Assembly: GCF_937138205.1 (NCBI RefSeq) | Contig: NZ_CAKZOT010000117.1 | Coordinates: 1 to 43,321 of the forward strand | Origin: an uncultured Rhodospira sp. | GTDB taxonomy: Bacteria > Pseudomonadota > Alphaproteobacteria > Rhodospirillales > Rhodospirillaceae | Length of the DNA: 43,321 bases | Reading direction: 5' to 3' | Position numbers and translations under genes: made by a program | In this document: positions 1 to 43,321 of the stretch, in pieces | Layout of the letters: each line of letters begins with the position of its first letter | Numbering within the stretch: position 1 is the first letter of the stretch | Notes under the pieces: generated by a model | Told to the model about the DNA's origin: nothing | The model's database searches: none | The model's input: the letters and a program-made list of their open reading frames with translations, nothing else

Positions 1-116
1 GTTTTTCGCGCGTCAGATATGCTTGCCAATTTCCATTCCGCAGGATTTTCTGAGGACCCAGGTTTTTCGCGCGTCAGATATGCTTGCCAATTTCCATTCC
101 GCAGGATTTTCTGAGG
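1..116. repeat. Left copy of 116-bp terminal direct repeat (two tandem 55-bp units)
   Basis: Bases 1-116 are identical to 43206-43321. Inside the repeat are two identical 55-bp units (1-55 and 62-116) separated by the 6 bases ACCCAG. The terminal identity can mean a circular or permuted genome with an assembly overlap, or a true short terminal repeat. The tandem units may also be collapsed by assembly, so the real copy number is uncertain. If the genome is circular, the array lies just upstream of the leftward terminase gene. Confidence 0.9.
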
Positions 117-224
117 TGGTTTCTTGTTGCGGGGGTCCTCTGGACCATACACCGGGGGTCCCTACAGTTCCGGCATACCCCTCCACAAACAATTCTATAT
201 AGAGTAGCTTCGCTACAAGTATTG

Positions 225-249
225 AGTAGGGCAGCGTTGCTGCCCTACT
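225..249. other. Perfect 11-bp hairpin
   Basis: AGTAGGGCAGC at 225-235 pairs with GCTGCCCTACT at 239-249 around the loop GTT. No T tract follows on either strand, so it is not a classical terminator. The stem sequence resembles that of the terminator at 2756-2778 (ATAGGGCAG/CTGCCCTAT), which suggests duplicated elements. Confidence 0.6.
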
Positions 250-345
250 GGCCCCGCGCGCGGGCCTACCATGCCCGGACCAGGGCGGACCATGGTGAAC
301 GCGGGTGACGCGCGCAACACGGGGAGGGGGAGGCCATCGCCCCAA

Positions 346-361
346 TGTTTCACGTGAAACA
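346..361. promoter_or_regulatory. parS site 1 (ParB-binding centromere sequence)
   Basis: The 16-bp palindrome TGTTTCACGTGAAACA exactly equals the consensus parS bound by chromosomal ParB/Spo0J proteins across bacteria. A single perfect chance match in 43 kb is expected about 1e-5 times (43,000/4^16), and this window has three perfect copies and one 15/16 copy. No ParA or ParB gene is present, so the host's ParB is the likely binder (inference). Confidence 0.93.
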
Positions 362-411
362 ACGGTGACGTGGGCAGACCCGGAGACCGTGGGCATGGTC
401 GAGCGCGCCCA

Positions 412-427
412 TGTTTCACGTGAAACA
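412..427. promoter_or_regulatory. parS site 2 (ParB-binding centromere sequence)
   Basis: Second perfect TGTTTCACGTGAAACA, 66 bp start-to-start from site 1. Two close parS copies in a gene-free stretch look like a small centromere on which ParB could load and spread. Confidence 0.93.
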
Positions 428-652
428 CCCGATCACGGCGGGTCGGGTGACACTTTCGCACGCGGGCAAACGTCGAAAACGGGACTTGATCGTTAAACCA
501 AGCACCGAGACATAGACCCACCCAACCAGCATATGAACGCTTTCGGGTGAGCGTCCAAGAGAAAGGTCAACACCCCTGCCCTAAATGATGGGGGAGTGCG
601 CGGGGCCGGCCCACGGAAATGCGAAGGGCTCGTAAATAGTATGTAGCCAAAG

Positions 653-680
653 CAAAAGGGGAAGGCCGAAGCCTTCCCCT
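653..680 (-). terminator. Rho-independent terminator of the leftward early operon
   Basis: On the minus strand AGGGGAAGGC pairs with GCCTTCCCCT around a TTCG tetraloop, and the 3' arm runs into TTTT. It lies 25 bp past the stop of the last operon gene (705) and is directly followed on the plus strand by a parS site. Confidence 0.8.
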
Positions 681-684
681 CTGG

Positions 685-700
685 TGTTTCACGTGAAACA
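685..700. promoter_or_regulatory. parS site 3 (ParB-binding centromere sequence)
   Basis: Third perfect TGTTTCACGTGAAACA. It sits in the 24-bp gap between the leftward terminator stem and the stop codon of the 705-905 gene, so the site is kept outside both coding sequence and hairpin. Confidence 0.93.
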
Positions 701-704
701 GGGT

Positions 705-905
705 CTAGTCGTCATGTTCCGGAGAATAGACCGGATCGGGCTCAAACTCGGGATACAGGGCCTTGATATCCTCAGGGCTCGCCACCTCTGTGCACCTGAA
801 TTCCCTCCGACGCACGGCGAGGCGGTGCGCTTCGAACCTCTTGCCCCGCAAGGCGCGCTTGCGTGCGTCGGGCTTTCCACGGCTGTTCCGGATCGTGCGG
901 CCCAT
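705..905 (-). CDS. Small hypothetical protein, last gene of leftward early operon
   Basis: A 66-residue protein of unknown function. The N-terminal third is strongly basic (many Arg/Lys, residues 3-34) and the C-terminal third is acidic and proline-containing (SPEDIKALYPEFEPDPVY). That charge split is common in small phage proteins that bind nucleic acid or a host protein, but no family is recognised. The ATG at 905 has a strong GGAGGG 7-9 bases upstream. The gene begins 3 bp after the stop of the 909-1148 gene, so the two are probably translationally coupled. A terminator and a parS follow its stop. Confidence 0.7.
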   Translation of the reverse strand: MGRTIRNSRGKPDARKRALRGKRFEAHRLAVRRREFRCTEVASPEDIKALYPEFEPDPVYSPEHDD

Positions 906-908
906 GGC

Positions 909-1148
909 TCAACCCTCCTCGCGCGCAAATGGGCCATCATACAGAACCTCAAGCGGCCCGCCCTCGCCCTTCCAGGGTGTCCGCAAGACGCGCACAAAGT
1001 CGCGCCCGTCTTCCGACACATAGGGCTCTACGCGAACCGCGCCCGACCAAGACGCCAGGGTAACGTGGGCGCTCGACCCTTGCACGCGGCGCGTGACGTC
1101 CTGCGAATTGCTCTTCCCGCCGTTCATGGTCATATAGAAACGCGACAT
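909..1148 (-). CDS. Small hypothetical protein
   Basis: A 79-residue protein that I cannot assign to a family. Alternating hydrophobic and polar residues (SSAHVTLASWSGAVRVEPYV, then DFVRVLRTPW and PLEVLYDGPF) suggest a small beta-rich fold. There is no signal peptide or membrane segment. The ATG at 1148 follows GAGGAG with good spacing. It is the fourth of five leftward genes, 24 bp after the 1173-1454 gene. Being in an early-type operon of small proteins suggests a host-takeover or regulatory role, but nothing in the sequence shows which. Confidence 0.7.
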   Translation of the reverse strand: MSRFYMTMNGGKSNSQDVTRRVQGSSAHVTLASWSGAVRVEPYVSEDGRDFVRVLRTPWKGEGGPLEVLYDGPFAREEG

Positions 1149-1172
1149 GATAAAAACTCCTCTGGTGTTGTG

Positions 1173-1454
1173 TTAGACGCTGCGCGGGGCAATCCGCGAG
1201 ACCATTTCCGACAGGGCACCGCGTCGTTCGGTGAAACCATAGTGCCCAATGACGCAAATCCGGCCGCGCTTAAACACGCGTTCCGCCGCGTCCGGGTCGG
1301 CCTTCGGGCAAGGCTTCGGGGAAAGGCAGTACGTCACAAAATCTGGACGCGGCCCCATGCGCTCGACGGTCACGAATTCATCGCCCCGCTCGGGATCGGA
1401 GACATAACCGCAAACTTCATACGCAAACGGAAGGTCCAGTTTCAAGGTGAGCAT
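1173..1454 (-). CDS. Small hypothetical protein with duplicated promoter/leader
   Basis: A 93-residue unknown protein. It contains four cysteines (CGYV near residue 15, YCLSPKPC near 42-49, and ICVIG near 67). They are not in a clear zinc-ribbon spacing. No membrane segment or signal is seen. The ATG at 1454 is preceded by GAGGAG and by a 57-bp promoter/leader block that is identical to the one in front of the 1833-2450 gene. This gene may therefore be transcribed from its own promoter inside the operon and share regulation with that gene. Confidence 0.7.
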   Translation of the reverse strand: MLTLKLDLPFAYEVCGYVSDPERGDEFVTVERMGPRPDFVTYCLSPKPCPKADPDAAERVFKRGRICVIGHYGFTERRGALSEMVSRIAPRSV

Positions 1455-1462
1455 GGCTTTAG

Positions 1463-1542
1463 CTCCTCGGGGTTCGGTCGGACCTGAATGGCCCCGACCT
1501 TCAAAAATGATCCTATACCGTCTTTCCCGGGCTCGCAAGCCC
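1463..1542 (-). promoter_or_regulatory. Promoter and structured leader, copy B
   Basis: Reading leftward: a perfect palindrome GGGCTTGCGAGCCC (1529-1542) surrounds a -35-like TTGCGA, followed 17 bp later by TAGGAT (1510-1515). After it comes a leader with the hairpin GGTCGG/CCGACC (1476-1499) and CCCCGAGGAG, the ribosome binding site. Bases 1463-1519 are identical to 2459-2515. The palindrome overlaps the last codons of the 1513-1770 gene. Confidence 0.55.
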
Positions 1543-1770
1543 ATCTTTCACCATCTGGGCATAGCGCGCGCCGACGGTCGCCAGTTCGGCCCAAACGCGA
1601 GTGTCGCGGCGCACGGCGCGTGATCTCCCATTGACGTCCCGCCCTTCCGCGTCCAAAAGGCCCCCCTCCGCGTCAAACCATGCGGAATATCGCATCACGG
1701 TTCCATGCGGGTTAATTCGGTGAAGAACGAAGCCCTTCCGCCCTTCGTCGAACAAGTGCAAGGTAGGCAT
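1513..1770 (-). CDS. Small hypothetical protein, leader carries a parS
   Basis: An 85-residue unknown protein. Its N-terminal half is rich in aromatic and hydrophobic residues (MPTLHLFDEGRKGFVLHRI and RYSAWFDAEGGLL); the C-terminal half is helical (AELATVGARYAQMVKDG). The ATG at 1770 follows AGGGAG. Its 5' leader has the same layout as those of its neighbours (a GG...CC hairpin, then the ribosome binding site and TTAGTGC). However, the place where the others have a promoter holds a near-perfect parS (1816-1831). ParB binding there could affect expression of this gene. Confidence 0.7.
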   Translation of the reverse strand: MPTLHLFDEGRKGFVLHRINPHGTVMRYSAWFDAEGGLLDAEGRDVNGRSRAVRRDTRVWAELATVGARYAQMVKDGLASPGKTV

Positions 1771-1815
1771 AGCACTAACTCCCTGGGGTCCGGTGGGGCC
1801 GAATGGCCCCACCCA
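1771..1815 (-). promoter_or_regulatory. Structured leader, third family member
   Basis: GGTGGGGCC and GGCCCCACC (1792-1813) form a 9-bp stem. Aligned with the other two leaders, the stem GGTCGG/CCGACC is replaced by GGTGGG/CCCACC, a compensatory change on both arms. This supports a conserved RNA hairpin just upstream of the ribosome binding site AGGGAG. Confidence 0.5.
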
Positions 1816-1831
1816 TGTTTCACGTGAAACG
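1816..1831. promoter_or_regulatory. parS site 4 (15 of 16 bases)
   Basis: TGTTTCACGTGAAACG matches the parS consensus at 15 of 16 positions, keeping the whole central 14-bp palindrome. It lies between the stop of the 1833-2450 gene and the leader hairpin of the 1513-1770 gene, about 1.1 kb from site 3. Confidence 0.88.
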
Positions 1832-1832
1832 A

Positions 1833-2450
1833 TCACTCGCCAAGCGCGTCCTCGTACGCTTCACGGCTGGTTTCGAAGGGGCCGATAGGCTCCCCGTCGG
1901 GCAGGCAACCGGGGAATTCGGCTTGCCAGTACCACCCTTCGGGCATCACGTCTTCGGTGCCAGGGAAGAGGAACAACGCGCCTTCCGTATGCCAGAAGAC
2001 CCTGAACGACCCATAAAACTGGTGTTGCTCGTCACCCCGGAAATTGTGATACCCGTTCATGTCGTTCGCCGTCGGTTCCGGAAATTCCCCGGCATCCATA
2101 GCCGATTGAAACTCAGAGGCCAGTTCATGGGCGAACCACTCGACCGCGAACCAAACGAGACTGCCCGCCGTAATGTCTTCCATGTTGCTCAACGCACCCT
2201 CGCCCGTGGCGTCGCGATACTCGCGGAGGGACTGTTCGATCGCATCCCACCAGGGGTCAATCTTGGCGCGGATATCGCTGTTATAGATAAGACCGGAAGG
2301 CGCGGCGCCATCGGCGCACGAACACGTCTCAAGGATCAACGCGGCGTCCCGTGCCGTCTCGGGTTCGCTATCCCGGACCCACTCGGCCAAGACTGCCACG
2401 ATCGGGTTTTCGCTGCCCTCTTTCTGGGAAAACCAAGTCTGAAACCGCAT
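1833..2450 (-). CDS. Hypothetical protein, first gene of leftward operon
   Basis: A 205-residue unknown protein, the largest and first of the five-gene leftward operon. It is acidic and rich in Trp and Phe. The last third (WYWQAEFPGCLPDGEPIGPF then a helix SREAYEDALGE) resembles the short conserved tail of small phage proteins of unknown function that carry a FPGCLPD-type motif. No enzyme motif is visible. The ATG at 2450 follows GAGGAG and a strong promoter-like leader. It may be among the first leftward genes expressed. Confidence 0.75.
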   Translation of the reverse strand: MRFQTWFSQKEGSENPIVAVLAEWVRDSEPETARDAALILETCSCADGAAPSGLIYNSDIRAKIDPWWDAIEQSLREYRDATGEGALSNMEDITAGSLVWFAVEWFAHELASEFQSAMDAGEFPEPTANDMNGYHNFRGDEQHQFYGSFRVFWHTEGALFLFPGTEDVMPEGWYWQAEFPGCLPDGEPIGPFETSREAYEDALGE

Positions 2451-2458
2451 GGCACTAA

Positions 2459-2538
2459 CTCCTCGGGGTTCGGTCGGACCTGAATGGCCCCGACCTTCAA
2501 AAATGATCCTATACCCGGTTTTTCGGGATTGCAATCCC
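2459..2538 (-). promoter_or_regulatory. Promoter and structured leader, copy A
   Basis: Reading leftward: the perfect palindrome GGGATTGCAATCCC (2525-2538) is centred on a -35-like TTGCAA, with TAGGAT 17 bp downstream (2506-2511). The leader forms GGTCGG/CCGACC (2472-2495) before CCCCGAGGAG. Compared with copy B, the palindrome changes from AT to CT on one arm and from AT to AG on the other, so the symmetry is kept. That suggests an operator or an RNA stem under selection. Confidence 0.55.
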
Positions 2539-2667
2539 CAAAATTCGCGTTCATGCTGATTTCAGGCTTACCTGGGCGCGTGACATTTTGGACATAGGCA
2601 CCGTTGCCAAGATGTCACCGCGTCCACCAAGAGCGAAAGGACGTCACCCGAACGCCCCGCGAACAGG

Positions 2668-2733
2668 AAGGGCGCACAATGCAAGCGGCTGTCTCCCGTG
2701 CGGAGACCGGCCCGGCATTGTGCGCCCTTTTTC
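2668..2733 (+). terminator. Rightward terminator-like structure, possible end of a small RNA
   Basis: AAGGGCGCACAATGC (2668-2682) pairs perfectly over 15 bp with GCATTGTGCGCCCTT (2715-2729), followed by TTTTT on the plus strand. The 32-base loop holds an inner 6-bp stem GTCTCC/GGAGAC (2691-2707). No rightward gene precedes it, so it may end a small non-coding RNA starting near 2580-2640. No clear promoter was found, and it is too short for a tRNA. Confidence 0.65.
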
Positions 2734-2751
2734 GTTCTGGGGCCGCGCGGG

Positions 2752-2778
2752 AAAAATAGGGCAGGACCTCTGCCCTAT
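2752..2778 (-). terminator. Leftward terminator after the replication module
   Basis: On the minus strand ATAGGGCAG pairs with CTGCCCTAT around AGGTC, followed by TTTTCCC. It lies 56 bp past the stop of the 2834-3310 gene and closes the leftward replication module. It faces the plus-strand terminator at 2668-2733. Confidence 0.75.
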
Positions 2779-2833
2779 CTCAGGCGGACCCCTAGATGCT
2801 TTCGCTGATATCGCCATGCTCGATTTTTCGGGC

Positions 2834-3310
2834 CTACCACATGTCCTCGATAGCGTCTCTGGCCTCCCTCTCCGCCTCAACCTCACGGATGGCCCGTTCG
2901 TCCCCCTCGGTCGTCAGGTGCTGTTCCTGCACGGGCTTTCCGAACCTGTTGATCCCTTCCTTGATGACGAACTTGCGCTTGACGTAGTTGTTCATGCGCG
3001 GGGGCTCGCGGTCACCACCAGCATCCCCCAAGGGGTGATCCTCCTCCACGTCCTTGCCGGCCTTCGCCAGCATCTTCTCCGCCAGGAACAACTCGGCCAG
3101 GGCCTTCGACCCGGTGGCCATGGCTGTGATGTCGCTCATGGGCCGGAGCCCCATGGTCGCCTCCACCATGACCCGCTCCAGCCCCCGCCTTATGGACCGC
3201 ACCGATCGGAACCGGAACCGACTGGCCTCCTCTATCCGATGATCCTCGCCCACGGAACTCAGATCGCGCGCCCGATCATGCTTGCTTGCAGCTTTCAAAC
3301 TCCCGGCCAT
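2834..3310 (-). CDS. Hypothetical protein next to the iteron origin
   Basis: A 158-residue, charged, mostly helical protein of unknown function. The N-terminal 50 residues are Arg-rich (RFRFRSVRSIRRGLERV), the middle is a helix with Ala/Leu/Lys (KALAELFLAEKMLAKAGKDVEE), and the C-terminus is a probable coiled coil (AIREVEAEREARDAIEDMW). The ATG at 3310 follows GGGAGG. Because it sits immediately downstream of the iteron array, it could be an origin-binding or copy-control protein. If the genome is circular, it also lies upstream of the terminase, so a small terminase is another option. Both are guesses from position. Confidence 0.65.
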   Translation of the reverse strand: MAGSLKAASKHDRARDLSSVGEDHRIEEASRFRFRSVRSIRRGLERVMVEATMGLRPMSDITAMATGSKALAELFLAEKMLAKAGKDVEEDHPLGDAGGDREPPRMNNYVKRKFVIKEGINRFGKPVQEQHLTTEGDERAIREVEAEREARDAIEDMW

Positions 3311-3381
3311 GTGTGCCTCCCTTCATGTATGCACTAACACACCAACACCATACCACTGGGCAACTCTACGGGGAACCCCCA

Positions 3382-3441
3382 TTTCTGCCGGTACACCCCC
3401 CTCCCCCCTAAAGGGGAGAGGGGGTGTACACCGTGCAGAAA
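3382..3441. other. Long inverted repeat (cruciform) beside the iterons
   Basis: TTTCTGC (3382-3388) and GCAGAAA (3435-3441) enclose GTACACCCCCCTCCCC (3391-3406) and its near-complement ending GGGGGTGTAC (3413-3429). The hairpin is about 60 nt with a 6-base apex. No T tract follows on either strand. Its place 70 bp from the iterons fits a nicking or single-strand initiation site, or an RNA stabiliser. The choice between these is inference. Confidence 0.7.
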
Positions 3442-3509
3442 CGCTAACAATATCAATGGCCCAAGGCCCATGAACCCGAAAAACACATGATACATCAAGG
3501 ACTTAGCAC

Positions 3510-3708
3510 TGTGGGCAGACTGTGGGCAATGTGGGCAGTGCCTGCCCACAGTGGCAAAAAGTCCAATGATTTCAATGTGTGGGCAGATTGTGGGCAGAGG
3601 TGTGGGCAGAGGTGTGGGCAGTGGGTCCGCTAGGTGCCCACACGGGCAAAAAGTCCAATGATTTCAACGTGTGGGCAGATTGTGGGCAGATTGTGGGCAG
3701 TGTGGGCA
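3510..3708. repeat. Iteron array, candidate replication origin
   Basis: Thirteen copies of TGTGGGCAG or one-mismatch variants. Direct copies start at 3510, 3521, 3530, 3578, 3589, 3601, 3613, 3670, 3681, 3692 and 3701; inverted copies lie at 3542-3550 and about 3634-3642. Most direct spacings are 11-12 bp, one helical turn. The array is built from a larger duplicated block: 3553-3597 and 3645-3689 differ at one base and include the A-rich GGCAAAAAGTCCAATGATTT. This is the layout of plasmid Rep-binding iterons. A fourteenth copy is at 6226-6234. Confidence 0.88.
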
Positions 3709-3810
3709 CTCCCCGGTCCATTAGGACATTCTCATGTTCCTCACTACATGGAAGTCCTACATACTCAAATTACAAGGATTTTCAGCCCCCGATCCTATAG
3801 AGGACAGTTG
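3709..3810. other. AT-richer spacer between iterons and the replication gene
   Basis: About 100 bp with noticeably more A/T than the rest of the genome, lying between the iteron array and the stop codon of the prim-pol/helicase gene. It could be the DNA-unwinding element of the origin. No hairpin or gene is seen here. Confidence 0.4.
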
Positions 3811-5877
3811 TCATTCAAGGGTTTTCGGCGGCGATCGGACGGCGCCCTCCCGCTCCCTCAAGGGAACACGCGGGATCACTCCGGTTGCTGTTGCCGCCGG
3901 GGGCGGCGTCACGGGCTTGGAGAACAGGGCAGCACGGCGCCGCTGACCCGGGCGTTCCATGGGCTTCATCTCCGCGTAGGGCCGCAGCACGTCCCGCCAC
4001 GCCGTGTCCCGGAGGAATTCCAGGATCGGGCTGTGGTTCTCCCCCAGGGTCTCCGACACCATCTTGGCGAGGGAGTACGGGGTCATGGTTGCTTCTGGAT
4101 CACGCTCGAATTTCTGCTCCAGCACGCCGATGGCCGCCTGCCCCCAGCGCTCTTGCCGGTCGCTCATCTTGCGGGTGGCCTCCCGGGCCACAGTGGCCTC
4201 GTGGGCGGCGGCCAGGGTGTCCAGGTCCTTCTGGGGCGCGGGGGCGCCCTCGGCCCTCTGGGGCCTCTGGAGGACGAGAGACGGGCCGGCCTTGACGGTC
4301 TGAAGGACCATCGGGATTTCCCATTCGTCGACGTCTTTCATCTTGGTGTTCTTGAGGATGCACTTCTGGTCTCCGTCCTTCCGCGCGAGGAACATGGCGT
4401 CCATGGCGCCGGGGAAGACGGTGGAGCCGCGCATGTCTTCCTTGCCTTTGGGGGAGTGGTGGACAAGCACGACGGTGCACTCCAGGAGGGACTGCAACTG
4501 GTGGAGCCGGGACATGAACAGCGTGGCGTCGGCTGTCGAGTTCTCGTCCAGGCCGGCCATGCATCCCGCCAAGGTGTCGAGAATGACGAGCGTGGGCTTG
4601 ATCGCGTGCAGTTCTTCTGCGAACTGGCGCAGGGCGGTATCGTCGGAGAACGCGGGCAAGTCCCGGATCGGATAGAACGTGTCCCGCAGGTCCGCCAGCG
4701 GGGTGTCGGTGTGCTGGCGCCATGCCTGGAGACGCCGCCGGAGGCCCAGGCGGCCCTCGGACGTCGCGTAGACCACGCGGCCCTGTGTCGTGTCGTGACC
4801 GTGCCAGGGCGTTCCGGTGGCGACGGACAGGGCCATGCCGAGCACGGCGAAGGTCTTGTAGGACCCGGGCTGTCCGTAGATCATCGCCGTGGACTGGGCC
4901 GGCAGGGTGCGAGAAATGAGCATCGGGGGCTCCTCCTCGCTCTCCAGGGCGTCCAGGGAGATGGGCTTGAACCGGGACGACGGGTCCAGTCCGGAGCGCT
5001 GGGCAAGGCGGGCCATCTCGTCCAGGGCCTCAGTGTCCAGGGCCTTCTCTCCGGCGGCGCGGCGAGCGTACCTGTGGACGTTGTCCGCGATCCTCTGGAG
5101 TTCGTCCGGGTGCCACGGGGGCTCGCAGGCGTCATTCCAGCCGGACAGGTCCAGCGCGTCGACGATCTCGTGCGGGGACAGGCCCATGTCCCGGAGGACA
5201 GCCGACGTGCGGAACGTGAAGTCATTCCCGCCCTGCCCCTCCCGCGCGATCCGGCCCTTCTCCACTTCCTGCCGAAGGTAGGTGAGCGCCTTCTTGAACG
5301 ATGACAGGGTGTCCCATTCGACCTTCGCCTCTTCATCCCGGGTCCGCTCGGTCGGTGCCCCGATACGATCGGCCAGCCATTTGGGGAGATGTTCGATCGG
5401 GGCGTCCTGTGCAGCGGCATAGACCCCGGCGGACTGCCCCTCGCGAGCGTCCAGGCGGGAGCCCGGGGCCAGCACATAGCCCCCATCCGAGCGCACGTCC
5501 ACGCCGGGAACCATGGCGGCCCGGTTGCGGGTCTTGCCCCGAAAGTAGACGTGCTGGCCTCCGGATGGTGTCGAGACCGTGAACGACGTCGGGGTCAGTT
5601 CCCCGGCCTCAAGCTGGAGCGCAAAGAACTCGTCCGGGCCGTCATGCCCCCGCTTGGTGTCCAGGTCGATCACCGTCAACGGGGGGTCGGCCGCGCCAAC
5701 GGCCAACCCCACGTTCGCGTCCGGAGTGAGGCACCACAGGTCCTTGATGGCCTCCGGGTCAGTCGTGGCGTCGTGGACACCATGCGACCCCTGACATGGC
5801 ACCTTGCTCCCGGCTTGCAGAGGGAACACAGGGACGCCACGTTCTGCCCATGACAGGGCAACGTCAAGTAGGTTCAT
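3811..5877 (-). CDS. Primase-polymerase / RepA-type helicase replication protein
   Basis: A 688-residue fusion. Residues 1-190 match the bifunctional primase/polymerase (prim-pol, AEP) fold: GVPVFPL near 15-20, the metal-binding pair D71/D73 in VIDLDTKRGHDG, and PSGGQHVYF further on. Residues 325-540 form a RecA/RepA-type ATPase with Walker A GQPGSYKT (K341) and Walker B LVILDTLAG (D434), then VVLVHHSPKG. The C-terminus is Pro/Arg-rich. Such proteins prime and unwind DNA at plasmid and phage origins. The start at 5877 follows GAGGGGGAA, 11 bp after the HTH gene with which it forms an operon. Iterons lie directly downstream. The iteron-binding domain is not obvious within it. Confidence 0.88.
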   Translation of the reverse strand: MNLLDVALSWAERGVPVFPLQAGSKVPCQGSHGVHDATTDPEAIKDLWCLTPDANVGLAVGAADPPLTVIDLDTKRGHDGPDEFFALQLEAGELTPTSFTVSTPSGGQHVYFRGKTRNRAAMVPGVDVRSDGGYVLAPGSRLDAREGQSAGVYAAAQDAPIEHLPKWLADRIGAPTERTRDEEAKVEWDTLSSFKKALTYLRQEVEKGRIAREGQGGNDFTFRTSAVLRDMGLSPHEIVDALDLSGWNDACEPPWHPDELQRIADNVHRYARRAAGEKALDTEALDEMARLAQRSGLDPSSRFKPISLDALESEEEPPMLISRTLPAQSTAMIYGQPGSYKTFAVLGMALSVATGTPWHGHDTTQGRVVYATSEGRLGLRRRLQAWRQHTDTPLADLRDTFYPIRDLPAFSDDTALRQFAEELHAIKPTLVILDTLAGCMAGLDENSTADATLFMSRLHQLQSLLECTVVLVHHSPKGKEDMRGSTVFPGAMDAMFLARKDGDQKCILKNTKMKDVDEWEIPMVLQTVKAGPSLVLQRPQRAEGAPAPQKDLDTLAAAHEATVAREATRKMSDRQERWGQAAIGVLEQKFERDPEATMTPYSLAKMVSETLGENHSPILEFLRDTAWRDVLRPYAEMKPMERPGQRRRAALFSKPVTPPPAATATGVIPRVPLREREGAVRSPPKTLE

Positions 5878-5888
5878 CCGTTCCCCCT

Positions 5889-6239
5889 CTATCGGGAGTT
5901 TTCCCGCTTCTCTCGCTCCGCCGCCAGGGTCGCCGCGACCTTGACCGGGTCCGCGCGGACCACTTCACCCACCACCGTGGCCTGCTGCCGGGGCCGGCCC
6001 GTGCGGGTCTTGGGTCCCTCTTGGCGCTCGGTCATCTCCGCCGCGAACTTCTCGATCGTGGCATAGGTCCAGAGCTTTCGGGGGATGGCGAACCCCTCCT
6101 GAAAGCAATCGGGGGAGGGGAACTTGCCGAAGCGACCCCAACGGACGATCGTGTGGGGGGAAACCCCCAGGAAGCGCGCCGCGCTGAACTTGTCGTGGTA
6201 GCCATCCGGGGGATTTATGGGATTTTGTGGGCAGTACAT
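5889..6239 (-). CDS. AlpA/MerR-type helix-turn-helix DNA-binding protein
   Basis: A 116-residue protein whose residues 15-60 look like an excisionase/AlpA-type winged HTH (DKFSAARFLGVSPHTIVRWG, then a FGKFPSPDCF...IPRKLWTYATIEKF wing). The C-terminal half is basic with a GRPRQQ patch. It may repress its own divergent promoter, act as replication initiator partner, or bind the iterons. The ATG at 6239 is preceded by CGGAGG. Codons 3-5 contain an inverted copy of the iteron (6226-6234). It is divergent from the long rightward operon, the usual place for a phage switch regulator. Confidence 0.78.
   Translation of the reverse strand: MYCPQNPINPPDGYHDKFSAARFLGVSPHTIVRWGRFGKFPSPDCFQEGFAIPRKLWTYATIEKFAAEMTERQEGPKTRTGRPRQQATVVGEVVRADPVKVAATLAAEREKRENSR
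6226..6234 (+). repeat. Isolated iteron copy at the start of the HTH gene
   Basis: TGTGGGCAG, identical to the origin iterons 2.5 kb away. Its position, overlapping the first codons of the replication operon and next to the divergent promoter, suggests that the iteron-binding protein also regulates its own synthesis, as plasmid Rep proteins often do. A single 9-mer could occur by chance (about 0.3 expected on both strands at even composition). Confidence 0.5.
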
Positions 6240-6258
6240 TCGGGCCTCCGATTTTTCG

Positions 6259-6288
6259 TTGACAGGGTATGCGTATGTACGCTACATA
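6259..6288 (+). promoter_or_regulatory. Rightward early promoter with palindromic operator
   Basis: TTGACA at 6259-6264 is followed by GCTACATA at 6281-6288, close to the Caulobacter housekeeping promoter pattern (TTGAC, short spacer, GCTANAWC). The -10 side is covered by the perfect interrupted palindrome TATGTA-CGC-TACATA (6274-6288), overlapping GCGTA-TG-TACGC (6271-6282). It drives the rightward block starting at 6326. The palindrome is a likely repressor site, perhaps for the divergent HTH protein (inference). Confidence 0.65.
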
Positions 6289-6325
6289 GATCGGGTCACA
6301 ACGTCAAGGACCTTGGAGGCCCACC

Positions 6326-6544
6326 ATGCAAACCACCGCTCCCGCCATGGCGTACTGGCGCCCGGCGGACACCACTCCCGGCTCGATCCGACGCGCACTG
6401 GTGCCGGCGAGCGTCTTCCCGGCCCCCTTGATCGTCGCCATTGCGATCCTGTTCCTGGTGGCATGGATCGGCGGAGAGACGGACGTCTTGGCGCCGGACT
6501 GGACCGGGTGCGCCCGGATCGAATGCGACGGTGGGTGGTCATGA
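6326..6544 (+). CDS. Small membrane protein, first rightward gene
   Basis: A 72-residue protein with one clear hydrophobic helix (ASVFPAPLIVAIAILFLVAW, residues about 28-47), a polar N-terminus of about 27 residues and a short polar tail with two Cys. It is probably inner-membrane. The ATG at 6326 follows GGAGG and is the first gene after the divergent promoter, so it is likely expressed at once after DNA entry. Its stop overlaps the next possible start as ATGA. Function unknown; superinfection exclusion is a common role for such genes but is not shown here. Confidence 0.65.
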   Translation: MQTTAPAMAYWRPADTTPGSIRRALVPASVFPAPLIVAIAILFLVAWIGGETDVLAPDWTGCARIECDGGWS

Positions 6545-6783
6545 GCCGGCCCCTCACCGTGCGCTTCGACCCCGCCCTTGTCAAGATCAGGGTGGCCGCC
6601 AGTATCCAGCGGGCGATCCGCCAAGGATGGGCCGTTTTCTTTGAATACCCAAGAGGAGCAGAACGTGAAGGCGAAGTACGTCAAGTATTGGAAACAACTG
6701 GAGCCGGGCGGCGAGGTGCGGGTGCCAATGAAAGACGAGACACAGGTCCTTCGCGCTCGGTCCTCCCTCAACGCCTACATTAA
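6541..6783 (+). CDS. Doubtful small protein overlapping the next gene
   Basis: An 80-residue frame whose ATG overlaps the previous stop (ATGA). Its first 40 residues look natural (PLTVRFDPALVKIRVAASIQ, RAIRQGWAVFFEY). The rest overlaps the 6665-6862 gene by 119 bases and looks like out-of-frame translation (Arg/Gly-rich). Either it is a short real gene with an overlapping tail, or the reading frame is broken by a frameshift near 6640-6665. Function unknown. Confidence 0.35.
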   Translation: MSRPLTVRFDPALVKIRVAASIQRAIRQGWAVFFEYPRGAEREGEVRQVLETTGAGRRGAGANERRDTGPSRSVLPQRLH

Positions 6784-6862
6784 GGACCACGGGTGGACTG
6801 TCCGCACACGACAGTCCGTCGACGTCGGTGGTCTTGTTCTGTTGGTTCACCGTTACACGTAG
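6665..6862 (+). CDS. Small hypothetical protein, GTG start
   Basis: A 65-residue unknown protein starting at GTG 6665, which has a strong AAGAGGAG 8 bases upstream; no ATG in this frame is as well placed. The composition is natural (KYVKYWKQLEPGGEVRVPM, then SSLNAYIKDHGWTVRTRQ) and suggests an alpha/beta fold, possibly single-stranded nucleic acid binding. It ends 9 bp before the next gene. Confidence 0.6.
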   Translation: MKAKYVKYWKQLEPGGEVRVPMKDETQVLRARSSLNAYIKDHGWTVRTRQSVDVGGLVLLVHRYT

Positions 6863-6871
6863 GAGACCACA

Positions 6872-7258
6872 ATGAGCCGAACCAATATCGCCATCACCCC
6901 AGAGCAACTACGGGCGCTTGAGGCCCGTATCACCGCCAGCATGAAGCAGGATGGGCTGGACCGCGCCTCGCGGCGCCGGGTCATTATGCGAGCGAGAAAG
7001 GACAGTGATGTTGCCGTATCGCGGCCTGTGAAGGTCAACGCGCCTGCCCCATCTCCTCGACCGCGCGGGATCGTGATGCCCGCAGCGGTGCGCGCGGCGG
7101 TCCAGGACCCTCGGCGCCCGACAGGCCCCCGGGACGTGGTCAAGGTCAACGGCACGACCGTGGACTTCCGCTATACGGACGGATCGGTCGAGCGTGTGAC
7201 CCGGCGCAAGGACGGCACCCTCCGCCGCAAGGTGTCCGGCCGCTGTGCATTTGTCTGA
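6872..7258 (+). CDS. Basic hypothetical protein
   Basis: A 128-residue, strongly basic protein. It has a helical N-terminus (TPEQLRALEARITASMKQDG), a Pro/Arg/Ala-rich linker (about 50-92) and a beta-like C-terminus (VVKVNGTTVDFRYTDGSVER) ending in a basic patch. The charge suggests DNA or RNA binding, but no family is recognised. The ATG at 6872 follows AGGAGA. It is separated from the next gene by a candidate promoter, so it may end an early transcription unit. Confidence 0.65.
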   Translation: MSRTNIAITPEQLRALEARITASMKQDGLDRASRRRVIMRARKDSDVAVSRPVKVNAPAPSPRPRGIVMPAAVRAAVQDPRRPTGPRDVVKVNGTTVDFRYTDGSVERVTRRKDGTLRRKVSGRCAFV

Positions 7259-7262
7259 TCGG

Positions 7263-7291
7263 TTGCCCTGGGCGCTGATCCGGCGTAGACT
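7263..7291 (+). promoter_or_regulatory. Candidate promoter for the protease gene
   Basis: TTGCCC (7263-7268), a 17-bp spacer and TAGACT (7286-7291). The -10 with its flank GCGTAGACT is the same as that of the candidate terminase promoter at 43081-43110. A private promoter and a trailing hairpin at 8285-8310 give the protease gene a moron-like setting. Confidence 0.45.
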
Positions 7292-7322
7292 TCTATCGTT
7301 CTAAACCATACAGGAGGATGCC

Positions 7323-8276: not shown

Positions 8277-8284
8277 GCTAACCC

Positions 8285-8310
8285 GGCGCCCCGGCCTCGG
8301 CTGGGGCGCC
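8285..8310 (+). other. GC-rich hairpin after the protease gene
   Basis: GGCGCCCC (8285-8292) pairs perfectly with GGGGCGCC (8303-8310). No T tract follows, so it is either a weak terminator or an mRNA 3'-end stabiliser. It separates the protease from the HNH gene. Confidence 0.55.
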
Positions 8311-8328
8311 GCCCACCCGGAGGACCCC

Positions 8329-8664
8329 ATGCGAACAATCCGCGCGCTCGCCCTTCCGCCAGAATGGGAACCGGACTTTGACGCCCTCCCCATCTGGCGG
8401 GACCCCGACACCGGGTGTTGGATTTGGGGCGGGTGGAACGATGGAAAGGGATATGGGAAACTTTCCATCGCAGGAACGACGTGGTACGCTCATCGGGCCA
8501 TGTACGCCCGGTTCCGGGGGCCGATACCCCTGGGCCATGTCCTGGACCACGTCGTGTGCAAGAACCCTCGGTGCGTGAACCCCTGGCACCTTGAACCGGT
8601 GACCGTCCGGGTGAATACCCACAGAGGACGCGCCGTTCTCTACACGAAAGGAACGAGACCATGA
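8329..8664 (+). CDS. HNH endonuclease
   Basis: A 111-residue HNH nuclease. It shows the WIWGGWNDGKGYG beta-strand, the YAHRAMYARFRGPIP helix, and the catalytic core LDHVVCKNPRCVNPWHLEPV: DH for the first His, the N in VNP, and the last His, with CxxxxC as a likely zinc pair. Small phage HNH proteins act as homing endonucleases or help packaging and recombination. It lies in the early block rather than beside TerL, which favours a homing or free-standing role. The ATG at 8329 follows GGAGGA; its stop overlaps the next start (ATGA). Confidence 0.88.
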   Translation: MRTIRALALPPEWEPDFDALPIWRDPDTGCWIWGGWNDGKGYGKLSIAGTTWYAHRAMYARFRGPIPLGHVLDHVVCKNPRCVNPWHLEPVTVRVNTHRGRAVLYTKGTRP

Positions 8665-9665: not shown

Positions 9666-9676
9666 GGGAGGAAACC

Positions 9677-9865: not shown

Positions 9866-9907
9866 CCGTTTGGGGCCTTACCTCAACCAACATAGGAGAA
9901 GAGCATC

Positions 9908-10195: not shown

Positions 10196-10213
10196 TCCTT
10201 TCGGCGTTGGGAC

Positions 10214-10233
10214 GGGGAGGGGCACCCCTCCCC
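10214..10233 (+). other. GC-only hairpin in front of the helicase genes
   Basis: GGGGAGGGG (10214-10222) pairs with CCCCTCCCC (10225-10233). The spacer is only CA, so the real loop takes up the innermost pair. There is no T tract. It may act as an RNA processing or stability element before the 10254 gene, whose ribosome binding site (GGGGGA) follows closely and could be partly masked. Confidence 0.5.
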
Positions 10234-10253
10234 CTTCTCAGGGGGATGGACAT

Positions 10254-10421: not shown

Positions 10422-12040
10422 GGCTAGATTTCAACCCAAAAACAGAGACATTCGTCCTATTCGTTTCTGCGGATGACGCGGCAGGGATCAAGCTGGCGGG
10501 AGACGTTGGCCTCGGGAAATCACTTCCGGCCTGCACGGCCAGTCGTCTGGTGTACGCGACGAAAGTCCCCTACGCGGCGCTCCCCTTCTGGCAGTGGGCC
10601 ACGGACGCGGCGCGGGACGAGTTGTTCTTTCTCCGGATGGCCTATGACGCGTCGTGGGCACAGGAGGGGACGCGGCAATTCCCGGTCCCGACCGACCTGG
10701 AGTATTTCCCGTTCCAGTCCTGCGGGATCGACTACGCCCTGGGCCGACAGCACACCATCATCGGGGATCAGCCCGGCCTGGGGAAGACCATTCAGGCGAT
10801 CGGGGTCGCCAACGAGCTTCGCATGAAGCGCATCCTGGTGCTCTGCCCTGCGAGCGTCCGCATTCAGTGGTACAAGAAGGTCATGGAGTGGTCGACCCTG
10901 CGACGGCGCCGAACGGTCCCGCTGGCCTACGCGATCCTGCGGGGGCGCGACGGCGTGCCGCCGGACGCCAACTGGACCATCCTCTCTTACGACTTGTGCC
11001 GGACGGACACGATCCACGAGCAACTGAGGGCCATGGGCCATTTCGACATGCTCGTTCTGGACGAAGGGCACTATCTGAAATCCCCGGAGACACAGCGGAC
11101 GCGGTCGGTGTTCGGCGGCGGGGAGGACGACCCGTTCCACGGCGGGCTCGCGGCGCACGCGGAGAAGGTGGTGGCGCTGACCGGGACCCCGCTCCCGAAC
11201 CGGCCCCGGGAGTGCTACACCCTGGTGCGCGGAATGAACTGGGACGCGATCGACAGGACAAGCCTTGACCGGTTCCAGCACCGGTATAACCCGTCCATGC
11301 GCATTCCGGACGGCGGGGGCCTGATTGAGAAAGTCGGGCGCCTCCCTGAACTCCAGGCCCGGCTCCGCTGCAACCTCATGGTTCGGCGCCGGAAGAAGGA
11401 CGTGCTCCACCAGCTTCCCGACGTGACCTATGAAGTCATCCGCGTCGACGAAACCAAGAAGATCAAAGAGGTGACGAAGGCCGAGAACATGCTCGGCCTG
11501 GACAAGAACGCCGTCGCGGCCGGCGGGCGCATGGACTTCGACGGGGAGGTGTCGACCGTCCGCCGGCTCATGGGCGAGGCCATCGCGCCCTTCGCGGCGG
11601 AGCAGGCCGAAATGCTCCTCGGTGGTGGTCTGGAGAAGCTGTTGATCTTCGCGTGGCACCGATCGGTGATCGGCTTCCTGCGGGAAAAACTGGAGCACTG
11701 GGGGGTCGTCACGATCGACGGGTCCCTGTCCAGCGCGGGGAAACACACCCGCGTGCAGCGGTTTCGCGAGGAACCGGACGTCCAGGTGTGTATCGGACAG
11801 ATCATCTCGTCCGGGACCGGAGTAGATGGCCTTCAGGACGTATGCGCCCACGCGCTTTTTGCGGAGCACGATTGGGTGCACGGAAACAACGAGCAGGCGG
11901 TTGACCGCCTCTGGCGCATCGGGCAGAATGCGGGCGTTTTGGCCCAGTTTCTTGTTGCGCCGAAATCCATATCGGAGTACATACTAAGTTCGGCGATTGA
12001 GAAGGCCGGAAACACGGACGCCGCACTCGACAAACGATAG
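10418..12040 (+). CDS. SNF2-type (superfamily 2) DNA helicase/translocase
   Basis: A 540-residue SNF2/SMARCAL1-like helicase, an ATP-driven DNA translocase. Motif I is GDQPGLGKT (K123), motif II is DEGH (D215-H218), and motif III is LTGTPLPNRP. The C-terminal lobe has LLIFAWHRSVIGFLREKL, GVDGLQ and the motif VI arginine region QAVDRLWRIGQ. Phages carry such helicases in replication/recombination clusters, where they remodel forks or displace proteins. It is followed by exonuclease, SSB, polymerase and resolvase genes in the same orientation. The start is ATG at 10418, coupled to the small gene before it. Confidence 0.88.
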   Translation: MRLDFNPKTETFVLFVSADDAAGIKLAGDVGLGKSLPACTASRLVYATKVPYAALPFWQWATDAARDELFFLRMAYDASWAQEGTRQFPVPTDLEYFPFQSCGIDYALGRQHTIIGDQPGLGKTIQAIGVANELRMKRILVLCPASVRIQWYKKVMEWSTLRRRRTVPLAYAILRGRDGVPPDANWTILSYDLCRTDTIHEQLRAMGHFDMLVLDEGHYLKSPETQRTRSVFGGGEDDPFHGGLAAHAEKVVALTGTPLPNRPRECYTLVRGMNWDAIDRTSLDRFQHRYNPSMRIPDGGGLIEKVGRLPELQARLRCNLMVRRRKKDVLHQLPDVTYEVIRVDETKKIKEVTKAENMLGLDKNAVAAGGRMDFDGEVSTVRRLMGEAIAPFAAEQAEMLLGGGLEKLLIFAWHRSVIGFLREKLEHWGVVTIDGSLSSAGKHTRVQRFREEPDVQVCIGQIISSGTGVDGLQDVCAHALFAEHDWVHGNNEQAVDRLWRIGQNAGVLAQFLVAPKSISEYILSSAIEKAGNTDAALDKR

Positions 12041-12050
12041 GAGACACGCT

Positions 12051-12914
12051 ATGAGCGAACTATTCGGTATGCACATGGACAGCTATCCGGCAATGGGGCG
12101 GATGGACGAGCCCCGAGACTGGTACGTCGCGGCGGATGCCCCCGTTGCTGCGACCAAGATTTTCGATTGCAATCTGGACACCATGCGGGCCTCGCCCCCG
12201 AAGGACCCACTGAAGAAGTCCCACAAGGCGGCGCTCATCGCCGTGTCCGAGCAGAACCCCGACATCCCGCTCACGATCATCACCGCGCGCGGCGGCATCC
12301 GCACTCCCATCATCGTGGACGAGCTTTGGCTTCTGGAGGACGCCGACGGGGTGTCGGTCCCCCTCCAGGGGGAGAACGTCCCCAGCTATGTCGCGGAAGC
12401 CATGGCCGACGCGGCGCCGGCCCCCGAGAAGGCCGAGACCGCGCCCGAAGCCGAAGGCGAGAAGCCCAAGCGTGGCGGGCGCCAGCGCCTTTCCGAGGAG
12501 GAGAAGGCTCGCCGGGCGGCCGAGAAGGAAGCCCAGAAGGCGGAGAAGGCCAAGGCCCGCGAGGAAGAGAAGGCCCGCAAGGCTGCCGAGAAGGAAGCCG
12601 AGAAGGCGGAGCAGGAGGCCCGGGCGGCCGAGACCGAGACCGAGACGGCGCACGAGCGCAAGGTGGACCGGGCCATCGGGGGCAACTCCGGCCCGATCCT
12701 CATGTCCTACCTGGGGCGGATTGAAGCCCTCAACGAGGAGGTCAAGGAAGTCCAGCAACAGGTCAAAGAGGTGTACGCGGAGGCCAAAGGGGGCGGATGG
12801 GACCCGAAGACGATCCGCAAGCTCGTGGCGCTGCGCAAACAGGACGCCGACGCCCAACGGGAAGAACTCGATATGTTCGCCCTGTATCTGAAGGCCATCG
12901 GCATCGAGTGGTGA
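12051..12914 (+). CDS. Protein with C-terminal GapR/DUF2312 DNA-binding domain
   Basis: A 287-residue protein in three parts. Residues 1-120 are an unknown alpha/beta domain. Residues 125-215 are a very charged Ala/Glu/Lys helix made of EEKARKAAEKEAEKAE-like repeats. Residues 222-287 strongly resemble GapR (IEALNEEVKEVQQQVKEVYA, then EAKGGGWDPKTIRKLVALRK, ending in LYLKAIG). GapR is an alphaproteobacterial nucleoid protein that clamps overtwisted DNA and supports replication with topoisomerases. This form with a long N-terminal extension is unusual. It lies between the helicase and exonuclease genes, so action at phage forks is plausible. The start at 12051 has TAGGAGA. Confidence 0.82.
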   Translation: MSELFGMHMDSYPAMGRMDEPRDWYVAADAPVAATKIFDCNLDTMRASPPKDPLKKSHKAALIAVSEQNPDIPLTIITARGGIRTPIIVDELWLLEDADGVSVPLQGENVPSYVAEAMADAAPAPEKAETAPEAEGEKPKRGGRQRLSEEEKARRAAEKEAQKAEKAKAREEEKARKAAEKEAEKAEQEARAAETETETAHERKVDRAIGGNSGPILMSYLGRIEALNEEVKEVQQQVKEVYAEAKGGGWDPKTIRKLVALRKQDADAQREELDMFALYLKAIGIEW

Positions 12915-36691: not shown

Positions 36692-37579
36692 TTAGCTGTG
36701 GTCCACCTGAATTTCGACGACGCGCTCCTCCTCAAGGCGAACAGCGGCGGCAGACATCCACGAGTAAAGCTGCCACATGTACCGCTTGTCCGGCCGCAGG
36801 TCGGCGCGGGTGGCCGGTTCCGCCGCGATGCCGAGAACAGCCGCGCCCGGCGTCCAGGCGATGCACTTGCTAATGCCAGTGGACACCAGCGGCAGGCGGT
36901 TCGTCCGGATGAACTCGAAGCCCATGAACGACGTGATCTTGCCCGCCTGGAGCGCCATCACGGTCGTGTAGTCGGCATTCGTCAGCTTGTCCTCATTCAG
37001 GAGATCGGTGATAGCCTTCGGATTGACCGCGAGGTAACGGGTGATCCCGTCCTCCACCTCGTCAATCTCCATCTTTTCACGGGCCTCCAGGAGCTTGGCC
37101 AGGGTGAACCCGACGCCGCCGTGGACGATCTCCTGCCCGGACGGAAGCGCCACACTGGAACCCCCGCGCTGGCCTGCCACCGCCGTGCCCACCAGGGCCT
37201 CCAGGATGATGGTGTCCAGCGTTCGGCCGATGACGCCCGCGTGACGGCGCACGTAGGCCCCCTTCGGGTCCGCCAGCATCTTCACCTGATCGACCTTATC
37301 CAGGTACGTCGCCTCGTCATAGGTGAGCGGGTACAACCACCGACGGGAATGCGGGATTTCGCGCGCTTCGGTGTCGCTGTGCCGGGACGTGATACGGTTC
37401 ATCGTGGACGTGCTGTCCGAGTTGACCGACCCGACCCGATCGCGCGAGGCACCCTCGCCCGTAACCTCCATTTCGTCCACCGTACCCCGGAACTTGGAGT
37501 AGCCCTGTTCGAGCAGGAGGACAAGGTTCGCGTTGAACTGGTCCACGTAGGACTGTTCGATTGTCGAGATAACCGCCAT
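36692..37579 (-). CDS. Major capsid protein
   Basis: A 295-residue protein of the phage capsid family typical for BPP-1/BcepC6B-like podoviruses. The start is AVISTIEQSYVDQFNANLVL, with a characteristic region REIPHSRRWLYPLTYDEATY and AYVRRHAGVIGRTLDTIILE, and the end is WQLYSWMSAAAVRLEEERVV. It has an N-terminal helix and a long beta-rich core with no visible protease-cleaved delta domain. The ATG at 37579 has GGAGGAAA. It is flanked by hairpins on both sides, which fits separate, high expression. Confidence 0.85.
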   Translation of the reverse strand: MAVISTIEQSYVDQFNANLVLLLEQGYSKFRGTVDEMEVTGEGASRDRVGSVNSDSTSTMNRITSRHSDTEAREIPHSRRWLYPLTYDEATYLDKVDQVKMLADPKGAYVRRHAGVIGRTLDTIILEALVGTAVAGQRGGSSVALPSGQEIVHGGVGFTLAKLLEAREKMEIDEVEDGITRYLAVNPKAITDLLNEDKLTNADYTTVMALQAGKITSFMGFEFIRTNRLPLVSTGISKCIAWTPGAAVLGIAAEPATRADLRPDKRYMWQLYSWMSAAAVRLEEERVVEIQVDHS

Positions 37580-41561: not shown

Positions 41562-43046
41562 TCAGTAAACGCCAGCGGCGGCCTGCTCGAATGTCGCGCC
41601 AGAGAATAGGGACTTGCTCACCCCCATCGCTCCTGTGCGCATAGCATCCGCTCCGTGAGAGGCCCAGTCGTGAACGGGGTTCTGTTTCATAATCTGTAGC
41701 CTCTCATCAAAGTCTCGCCGATACAGGGCCAGCCTGTCAAGCCCCTCCGCGCACCGGACGCTGTCGAACTCCGACCGGGGCAAGATCGCGTGGACGGCCG
41801 CGAGCCCGTCGGGCAGCGGATGCTTGGGCACCGTCGTCACGCGAATGCCCAGGGTCTCCAGCACCGACCGCCGGGTCTTGCCGGTCCCAAGCTCCCCGTT
41901 CTCCACGTCATGGGGGAAGTACATCTTCCCATAGCGATACCCCTTGTCCGCCAGAACGCTCGCGTAGTGCTCGAACCCGGCCCCGGTCGCCTCGTAGTAG
42001 TCGATAAACCGGAGGCCATCGCCCTGGACCTGGAAGAACCAGATCGCCGTGGCGTCGTCCCACCCCAGGTCCCACGCGGTGTGCACCGGGACGAACTTGA
42101 GCCAATGGACCCGCTTGATCCGGCCCTGCGCCCGCGCCTCCTCGATATCCTGGGCGAAGATGGCCCCCTCCACGGCCGCGTCGAACGAGCACTCCATCTC
42201 TTGATCGTACTTCGCCTGTGTCATGCCGGGCTTGCGCCGGTGCTTCCGCAGTTCCTTCGCGTTCAAGACCCCGGTCTCCGACGCCTTCAGGAGCGAAGCG
42301 AAATACTCCTGGTCTTCATCGTGGATTTCCTCCTGGAACCCCGTATCCGGGTTCACCATCCGCACCGGCTCCCCATTGGACCAAGTCATGGCGTGCTGGA
42401 ACATGGTGTACGCGTGGTTCCGGCCGAAGGGCGTGAAGATGAAATCCGCCCACTGGTTCGGCAGCCCCGCGTCATCCAGCCCCCGCCGGTTCTCGTCCAG
42501 GAGCATGGGAGAGACCTGCTCGGACCAGACCGACGGCGGGATTTGCGCGAATTCGTCGAACACGACCCCGTCCAGGTACAGGCCGCGAATTCGCTGTTTG
42601 GGGCTGTCCACCCCGTACAGCCGAATGCGGCTTGTTGTCCCGGCCCATGTGGGCAAGTAGACCGCCAGTTCCGACCGATCGACCCAATCCCGCTCCTTCA
42701 CCCCAAGGTGCTCATAGACTTTACAGGCGTAGTCATAGAGGTACGCCCACGCAATGTCCTTCGCCTGGGCATAAGTGGGGGCCATGTAAGCGAAGCGCCC
42801 GCGCTCGAACGGGCAATGGATCGCGCGGAACATGAGCTTGCGGATTTTCATGACCGTCTTGCCAAAACGACGGTGCATCACCTCGTAATTGTACCTTCGC
42901 TCGTTCTGTTCGAGCCAATCCTGTAGCGGGCGGGGCGTGTACCCGATCACCGCGTCAATATCCTCCGGCGGGGAGGGGACCGCCTCGCGGTCGGCCTCCT
43001 CGTCTTCCTTGAGATATTGGTCGATCTTGCTCAATAGGCCGGCCAC
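41562..43046 (-). CDS. terL: Terminase large subunit
   Basis: A 494-residue packaging motor and nuclease. Walker A is MHRRFGKTVM (K63), Walker B is GVVFDEFAQI (D164, E165), and the nuclease acidic residues are in AWDLGWDDATA (D326) and HDWASHGADAMR (D467). It pumps DNA into the head and cuts it. It starts at GTG 43046 with GGAGGA upstream. No small terminase is recognised beside it. It is the first gene of the leftward late operon. Confidence 0.92.
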   Translation of the reverse strand: MAGLLSKIDQYLKEDEEADREAVPSPPEDIDAVIGYTPRPLQDWLEQNERRYNYEVMHRRFGKTVMKIRKLMFRAIHCPFERGRFAYMAPTYAQAKDIAWAYLYDYACKVYEHLGVKERDWVDRSELAVYLPTWAGTTSRIRLYGVDSPKQRIRGLYLDGVVFDEFAQIPPSVWSEQVSPMLLDENRRGLDDAGLPNQWADFIFTPFGRNHAYTMFQHAMTWSNGEPVRMVNPDTGFQEEIHDEDQEYFASLLKASETGVLNAKELRKHRRKPGMTQAKYDQEMECSFDAAVEGAIFAQDIEEARAQGRIKRVHWLKFVPVHTAWDLGWDDATAIWFFQVQGDGLRFIDYYEATGAGFEHYASVLADKGYRYGKMYFPHDVENGELGTGKTRRSVLETLGIRVTTVPKHPLPDGLAAVHAILPRSEFDSVRCAEGLDRLALYRRDFDERLQIMKQNPVHDWASHGADAMRTGAMGVSKSLFSGATFEQAAAGVY

Positions 43047-43205: not shown

Positions 43206-43321
43206 GTTTTTCGCGCGTCAGATATGCTTGCCAATTTCCATTCCGCAGGATTTTCTGAGGACCCAGGTTTTTCGCGCGTCAGATATGCTTGCCAATTTCC
43301 ATTCCGCAGGATTTTCTGAGG
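43206..43321. repeat. Right copy of 116-bp terminal direct repeat
   Basis: Identical to bases 1-116, including both 55-bp units. See the left copy for interpretation. Confidence 0.9.

Follow-up and report, generated by a model that had tools for sequence, protein, structure and literature searches.

In bacterial chromosome segregation, ParB dimers load at parS sites in a CTP-dependent manner and slide outward, ParA moves the resulting complex, and SMC is recruited. Two mobile elements that touch on this machinery are the closest described systems. The entrapment of phi29 DNA in spores depends on Spo0J (Meijer et al. 2005, as cited in PMC9437464); by our own count, phi29 holds four parS sites at 15/16, and B103 holds one perfect site plus one at 15/16. 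According to PMC10954446, SGI1 carries parS mimics that exploit the ParABS system of its IncC helper plasmid for its own stability, and it destabilises this helper plasmid via the partition system. Judging by titles and abstract openings, no survey of parS sites in phages without parB came up in full-text searches of open-licence PMC papers.

Here, we analysed a stretch of 43,321 bases (the window), which is the entire 43.3-kb contig C117 of a 4.0-Mb bacterial genome in 118 contigs. The window carries four copies of the 16-bp palindrome of chromosomal-type parS, TGTTTCACGTGAAACA, of which three are perfect and one matches at 15/16 (Table 1). When up to three mismatches were allowed, the scan of the window returned these four sites only, while dinucleotide shuffles gave a mean of 0.08 sites and 0 of 100 shuffles reached four. 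The coordinates and mismatch counts of the earlier note were therefore correct, as was its statement that the sites are absent elsewhere in the window. CACGTG, the core hexamer of the motif, occurs less often in the window than expected (7 copies against 16.4), and four of the seven copies lie inside the parS sites. The sites had also been described as lying between genes or at gene edges, which agrees with our results: sites 1-3 fall in 1-704, taken as non-coding because its four scanned ORFs (13-396, 213-521, 305-496, and 84-308) are without a Pfam or PHROGs family match, and site 4 falls in a 62-bp gap, for which the bounding gene starts were read by eye. Terminator-like matches in window 1-6400 numbered three, which is not above the shuffles (mean 5.6). 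A repeated leader (1451-1542, 1767-1800, and 2447-2538) precedes three small leftward genes, with two of the copies being 88% identical over 92 nt; it is possibly a shared ribosome-binding or regulatory element.

Table 1. Coordinates of the parS sites, repeats, and selected genes in the window
Feature	Position	Strand	Remarks
Terminal direct repeat, 61-bp unit x1.9	1..116	.	Identical to 43206-43321
parS site 1	346..361	.	Perfect 16/16
parS site 2	412..427	.	Perfect 16/16
parS site 3	685..700	.	Perfect 16/16; hairpin 657-680 on one side, stop of 705-905(-) on the other
parS site 4	1816..1831	.	15/16; within the 62-bp gap between 1833-2450(-) and 1513-1770(-)
Protein without known function	2834..3310	-	Homologue in the relative G425, 35% over 108 residues
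Iteron-like direct repeats around TGTGGGCAG, period 11-12 bp	3510..3713	+	Putative origin
Primase-polymerase / AAA_25 (RepA-type) helicase	3811..5877	-	Pfam Prim-Pol 3.1e-31, AAA_25 3.4e-37
MerR/excisionase-like HTH protein	5889..6239	-	Weak matches
Protein with C-terminal GapR-like DNA-binding domain	11997..12914	+	PF10073 1.3e-20
Major capsid protein	36692..37579	-	phrog_3437 1e-71; anchor of phage identity
Terminase large subunit	41562..43046	-	About 0.5 kb to parS site 1 by coordinates if the ends are joined
Second copy of the 116-bp terminal repeat	43206..43321	.	Identical to 1..116

The window encodes a podovirus whose proteins show T7-type features. Phage structural and packaging genes, as a phage-plasmid would have, are present, namely terL, the head-tail adaptor (portal), the major capsid protein, and the tail and internal virion proteins, and they are accompanied by a DNA polymerase, an exonuclease, a Gp2.5-like SSB, a helicase, and an A1-like DNA transfer protein. 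Since the two ends of the contig are identical over 116 bp, the molecule is circular or terminally redundant. An entire contig with such a terminal repeat in a bacterial assembly is what an extrachromosomal closed replicon would give, as could carried virion DNA or a binning effect. With respect to a replication initiator and origin, the iteron-like repeats adjoin the primase-polymerase/helicase gene, and neither a classical Rep nor an integrase was recognised among the scanned window proteins; the same scan recognised no repressor beyond the weakly matching MerR/excisionase-like protein. Both the iteron-like repeats and the terminal repeat would fit a plasmid. The GapR-like domain occupies residues 235-302 of 305, with a long N-terminal part ahead of it. 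It is worth mentioning that the gene at 21089-21931 has endolysin / RNA polymerase inhibitor as its best PHROGs family (3.7e-66), and that its second PHROGs family and Pfam (1.3e-28, 141-239) point to a dATP/dGTP (di/pyro)phosphohydrolase domain.

The phage had been said to encode neither ParA nor ParB, and all three of our approaches bear this out. The ParB_N profile matched C104 and C44 among the contigs of the genome and gave no match on C117, tblastn with the host ParA and ParB against the window returned nothing, and the scanned window proteins, which did not take in every small ORF, gave no ParA or ParB match. Partition genes of its own, which are common in phage-plasmids and not obligatory, were thus not found on C117 by the profile search or tblastn. 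A canonical rsmG-parA-parB locus is present in this genome on C104, and four perfect copies of TGTTTCACGTGAAACA are located on C101 between mnmG and the gene of a zinc-binding dehydrogenase (quinone-oxidoreductase-like); the vicinity of mnmG is the usual place of chromosomal parS. The phage sites therefore have the same sequence as host parS by origin-type genes (C101, C104), and the exact 15-mer occurs in this genome only on C117 and, four times, on C101. The host ParB contains ParB_N, HTH_ParB, and ParB_C domains; its best match among solved structures is ParB 6t1f, with the segment GKSRSHVANT identical in both. Given the exact identity of the 16-mer, the phage sites agree to the letter with those expected for the ParB in this assembly, and we consider it highly probable that host ParB would bind them and load there.

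Among host-family genomes, 65 of 73 (own included) carry TGTTTCACGTGAAACA, mostly in two to four copies each. One of these genomes (G094, L244-L258) has 17 perfect parS sites on 15 contigs, 14 of which hold a single site; two to four sites are usual in its relatives. The host genome encodes another ParB_N protein on C44 (L012), which has about 670 residues and a weak RepB-like similarity. At the level of sequence, the phage carries parS for the ParB of another replicon in the cell, and residence in the same cell rests on the assembly. The link between phage and host rests only on co-assembly, in a genome that may be a MAG, and on a 16-mer that is common to very many bacteria.

A pick-up of the host parS region by the phage is unlikely, as the comparison of flanks does not support it. 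When 40 nt of flanking sequence were compared among the eight sites of phage and host, identity was 15-45% whichever orientation was used, and such largely unrelated flanks argue against the capture of one chromosome piece. The contrary point is the best local match, between the phage site at 346 and the host site at 3675, in which 25 of 27 nt agree with the core included.

The window is also marked by the absence of several short palindromes. GANTC, the methylation site of CcrM, does not occur in 1-43321 against about 202-204 expected, and the hexamers CCGCGG (51 expected), GGGCCC (40), GGATCC (24), and CTCGAG (16) are all missing, which looks like restriction avoidance. The absence of GANTC and of CCGCGG-type hexamers points to strong selection of the restriction type and to a good deal of lytic spread. 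Among the relatives, GANTC is similarly rare in G031 (3 against 218 expected), G043 (1 against 154), and G425 (3 seen), and it reaches 43-63% of expectation in G001, G002, G007, and G010. The host encodes a CcrM-like methyltransferase with 78% identity to a typed fragment. The full CtrA site, TTAA-N7-TTAA, is found nowhere in the window.

The earlier note had proposed a search of related phages for conserved parS and had named absence from them as an outcome that would speak against its proposal; absence is what we observed. We fetched 83 virus records by a related A1, TerL, or portal protein (50 + 33 records, many of them fragments; 80 by the A1 protein and 3 by TerL or portal), and the parS core was found in none of them with up to one mismatch allowed. 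The closest relative in TerL (50%), G425 (IMGVR_UViG_3300045911_000040, 42,139 bp), is syntenic with the window and has matches to 20 of the 45 window proteins, of which two fall on a single place; it has neither parS nor a cluster of any other long palindrome. Because none of the 83 relatives carries parS, the cluster looks lineage-specific, either gained by the lineage of this phage or lost by its relatives, and the sites do not look like a conserved module of this phage group.

Searches beyond these relatives gave few matches. The A1 protein was not found in 72 further host-family genomes, some of them incomplete, and the TerL search in 317 genomes of the order matched 21, own included, with the best other being 41% identical (up to 44% over short stretches). 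A single-sequence search for primase-polymerase relatives in IMG/VR returned no stretch, and megablast of window 1-20000 against phage records returned nothing. An A1 relative is present in a Rhodospirillaceae MAG; together with the CcrM-like methyltransferase, the GapR domain of the phage, and the ParB match, this suggests that the host is alphaproteobacterial. Two of the related phages have dispersed near-palindromes of another kind: G043 (L271-L273) has 19 within three mismatches of GGTATCACGTGATACC, and G031 (L268-L270) has 12, several of which are closer to GGTATTACGTAATACC. Their arrangement is reminiscent of stoperators.

We found the exact 16-mer in at least 120 stretches of IMG/VR, compared to 11 and 5 for two matched palindromes, which have the same half-site dinucleotides as parS and one copy per stretch. 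Two or more perfect copies are present in 17 of 120 among the listed stretches, and the complete count of viral contigs with two parS sites 30-60 nt apart is 29, several of which are near-copies of each other. ParB_N was detected in 5 of 100 parS-bearing whole viral records (4 of 50, three over the cut-off, and 1 of 50); since short fragments are frequent among the records, the absence of ParB_N is no proof. It is missing from 28 of the 29 tandem-parS contigs. The sole carrier among them (L346) encodes, some 1.9 kb from the cluster, a protein that is 45% identical to host ParB across 164 residues, and is either a self-contained parBS or a chromosomal piece. Across the fetched viral loci (the 120 listed plus the 29, two shared), host ParA, MnmG, and RsmG found no relative and host ParB two only, which argues against most of the loci being misfiled contigs of chromosomal origin. 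One of the viral parS loci (L101) carries head, upper-collar connector, and packaging families, apparently of the phi29 kind. The enrichment in IMG/VR does not prove a function phage by phage.

Two features of these viral contigs were considered and set aside. Intergenic placement was rejected as evidence: 68 of 146 viral parS sites are inside ORFs against a coding background of 0.87, and placement does not discriminate because the first control palindrome is also mostly outside ORFs (1 of 11 inside). Proximity to the terminase is a lead only and too weak, as Terminase_6N was matched in 15 of 50 parS-bearing records (10 over the cut-off) and parS lies within 5 kb of it in 7 of these 15, compared to 3.9 expected under uniform placement. 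In a ParB-less phage family of 12 loci (L108, L135, L144, L345, L355, L356, L358, L359, L363-L365, and L369), the parS cores were identical in 126 of 144 comparisons against 9% (399/4380) of random 14-mers; the contigs had been chosen for parS, alignments of >92% identity were left out, the rows are non-independent, and repeated sites align with each other, so that selection on parS within the family is only suggestive. Among the other viral contigs, one of 116 kb (L178) has 12 parS-like sites within one mismatch, and another (L207) has five GTTTCACGTGAAAC cores, four of which are CGTTTCACGTGAAACG; both records are without ParB_N.

In our best single reading, the four palindromes would be loading sites of the host chromosomal ParB. 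ParB clamps would load at the cluster, within 0.3-1.8 kb of the joined contig ends, and slide over the adjacent phage DNA, with spreading that would take in terL, the origin region, and the small genes read leftward. The phage genome would be treated like a chromosome origin by host ParA, perhaps together with SMC, and the most likely benefit would be that a phage genome kept outside the chromosome, be it plasmid-like or in a carrier state, is faithfully positioned and partitioned with no parAB of its own. We regard partition of a plasmid-like phage by host ParABS as evenly poised between right and wrong. It is supported by the four sites against 0.08 expected, the host-identical 16-mer, the unrelated flanks, the viral enrichment, and the SGI1 precedent, and it is weakened by the lack of a recognised integrase or classical Rep among the scanned proteins, the 0 of 83 relatives with parS, and the absence of GANTC and the hexamers; the plasmid state is its weak step. 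The earlier note had proposed that host machinery may be borrowed for a plasmid-like prophage; the exact host parS, the host ParAB, and a phage with neither gene recognised stand, while the plasmid prophage state is putative.

A use closer to that of phi29 seems rather unlikely to us. Host ParB and SMC would then position, compact, or silence the phage DNA from the parS cluster at a certain stage of the cell cycle, as in lytic deferral or a carrier state, without stable plasmid partition. Even the virulent phi29 has its four sites at 15/16 and B103 its perfect site and one at 15/16, and the Spo0J-dependent spore entrapment cited in PMC9437464 is an effect of this sort. In the window, the sites lie between leftward early genes and, over the joined ends, terL, and the GapR domain and the absence of GANTC appear as if tuned to alphaproteobacterial chromosome biology; however, this host is not known to sporulate or arrest, and no match to the full CtrA site is present. 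It is improbable that the sites serve as decoys, in which case replicating phage copies would absorb host ParB and disturb chromosome segregation or division during infection. SGI1 does upset its helper plasmid via the partition system (PMC10954446), and the four sites per phage genome equal the number found on host C101, so that replication could make phage sites outnumber those of the host, but titration requires no special place and a cluster within 1.5 kb by the putative origin looks centromere-like.

That another protein, such as a phage regulator or palindrome-binding factor, binds the palindrome and its identity with parS is coincidental we consider very improbable. Related phages have dispersed CACGTG-centred palindromes of their own (the 19 sites of G043 near GGTATCACGTGATACC), so the lineage does use such motifs; the motif of the window, however, is undispersed and letter-perfect host parS, and the two matched palindromes are at least 11 and at least 24 times rarer in viral contigs. 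A non-functional relic, either a scrap of the host oriC region acquired by recombination or an assembly artefact, is hardly credible. The identical 16-mer on C101 and the 25 of 27 nt shared by the 346 and host 3675 pair, core included, would fit it, but beyond this pair the sites of phage and host share no longer stretch of homology, the four copies are embedded separately, the contig is bounded by a terminal repeat of its own, and none of the scanned proteins was recognised as that of a host gene.

Partition by host ParABS can also be placed in a wider proposal: that parS mimicry is a widespread viral strategy, occurring in many unrelated lineages, most without ParB, in which clusters let host ParB and SMC grip the DNA, and that the cluster described here is the outsourced centromere of an extrachromosomal phage replicon in an alphaproteobacterial-type host. 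We hold this combined proposal tentatively, with doubt slightly prevailing. To our knowledge, chromosomal parS is near-universal in bacteria, and parS could therefore, in principle, give a phage access to chromosome segregation in most bacteria for 16 bp per site. If true, phages would have a way to stay extrachromosomal that requires neither integrase nor parAB, and host ParB would matter in phage biology beyond phi29. The enrichment in IMG/VR (at least 120 against 11 and 5) makes the idea testable with existing ParB proteins.

Compared to the described systems, phi29 is similar to this phage in having several near-consensus chromosomal parS sites and an annotation without parB, and host ParB acts on its DNA (as cited in PMC9437464). 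It differs in being virulent and protein-primed, in having a sporulating Firmicute as its host, and in carrying its four 15/16 sites over the right half of its genome, whereas three of the four sites here are perfect, all lie in 1.5 kb by the iteron-like origin, and the host is presumably alphaproteobacterial. SGI1 resembles our proposal in that an element with parS mimics is stabilised by the ParABS of another replicon (PMC10954446); however, SGI1 is integrative and mobilizable and draws on the system of a plasmid, whereas the phage would use the chromosomal one. The extrachromosomal genomes of mycobacteriophage RedRock and of P1 are partitioned as well (PMC7157519), but by phage-encoded partition proteins, of which none was found in this phage. 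Phages of Alphaproteobacteria with CtrA sites likewise have, within a large intergenic region, sites to which a cell-cycle protein of the host binds (PMC9437464), although the host protein is another one and the window has no full CtrA site. Mimicry of parS is thus already known from phi29 and SGI1, and what is new here is that a phage from this lineage of bacteria has host parS sites that are perfect and clustered by an iteron-like origin.
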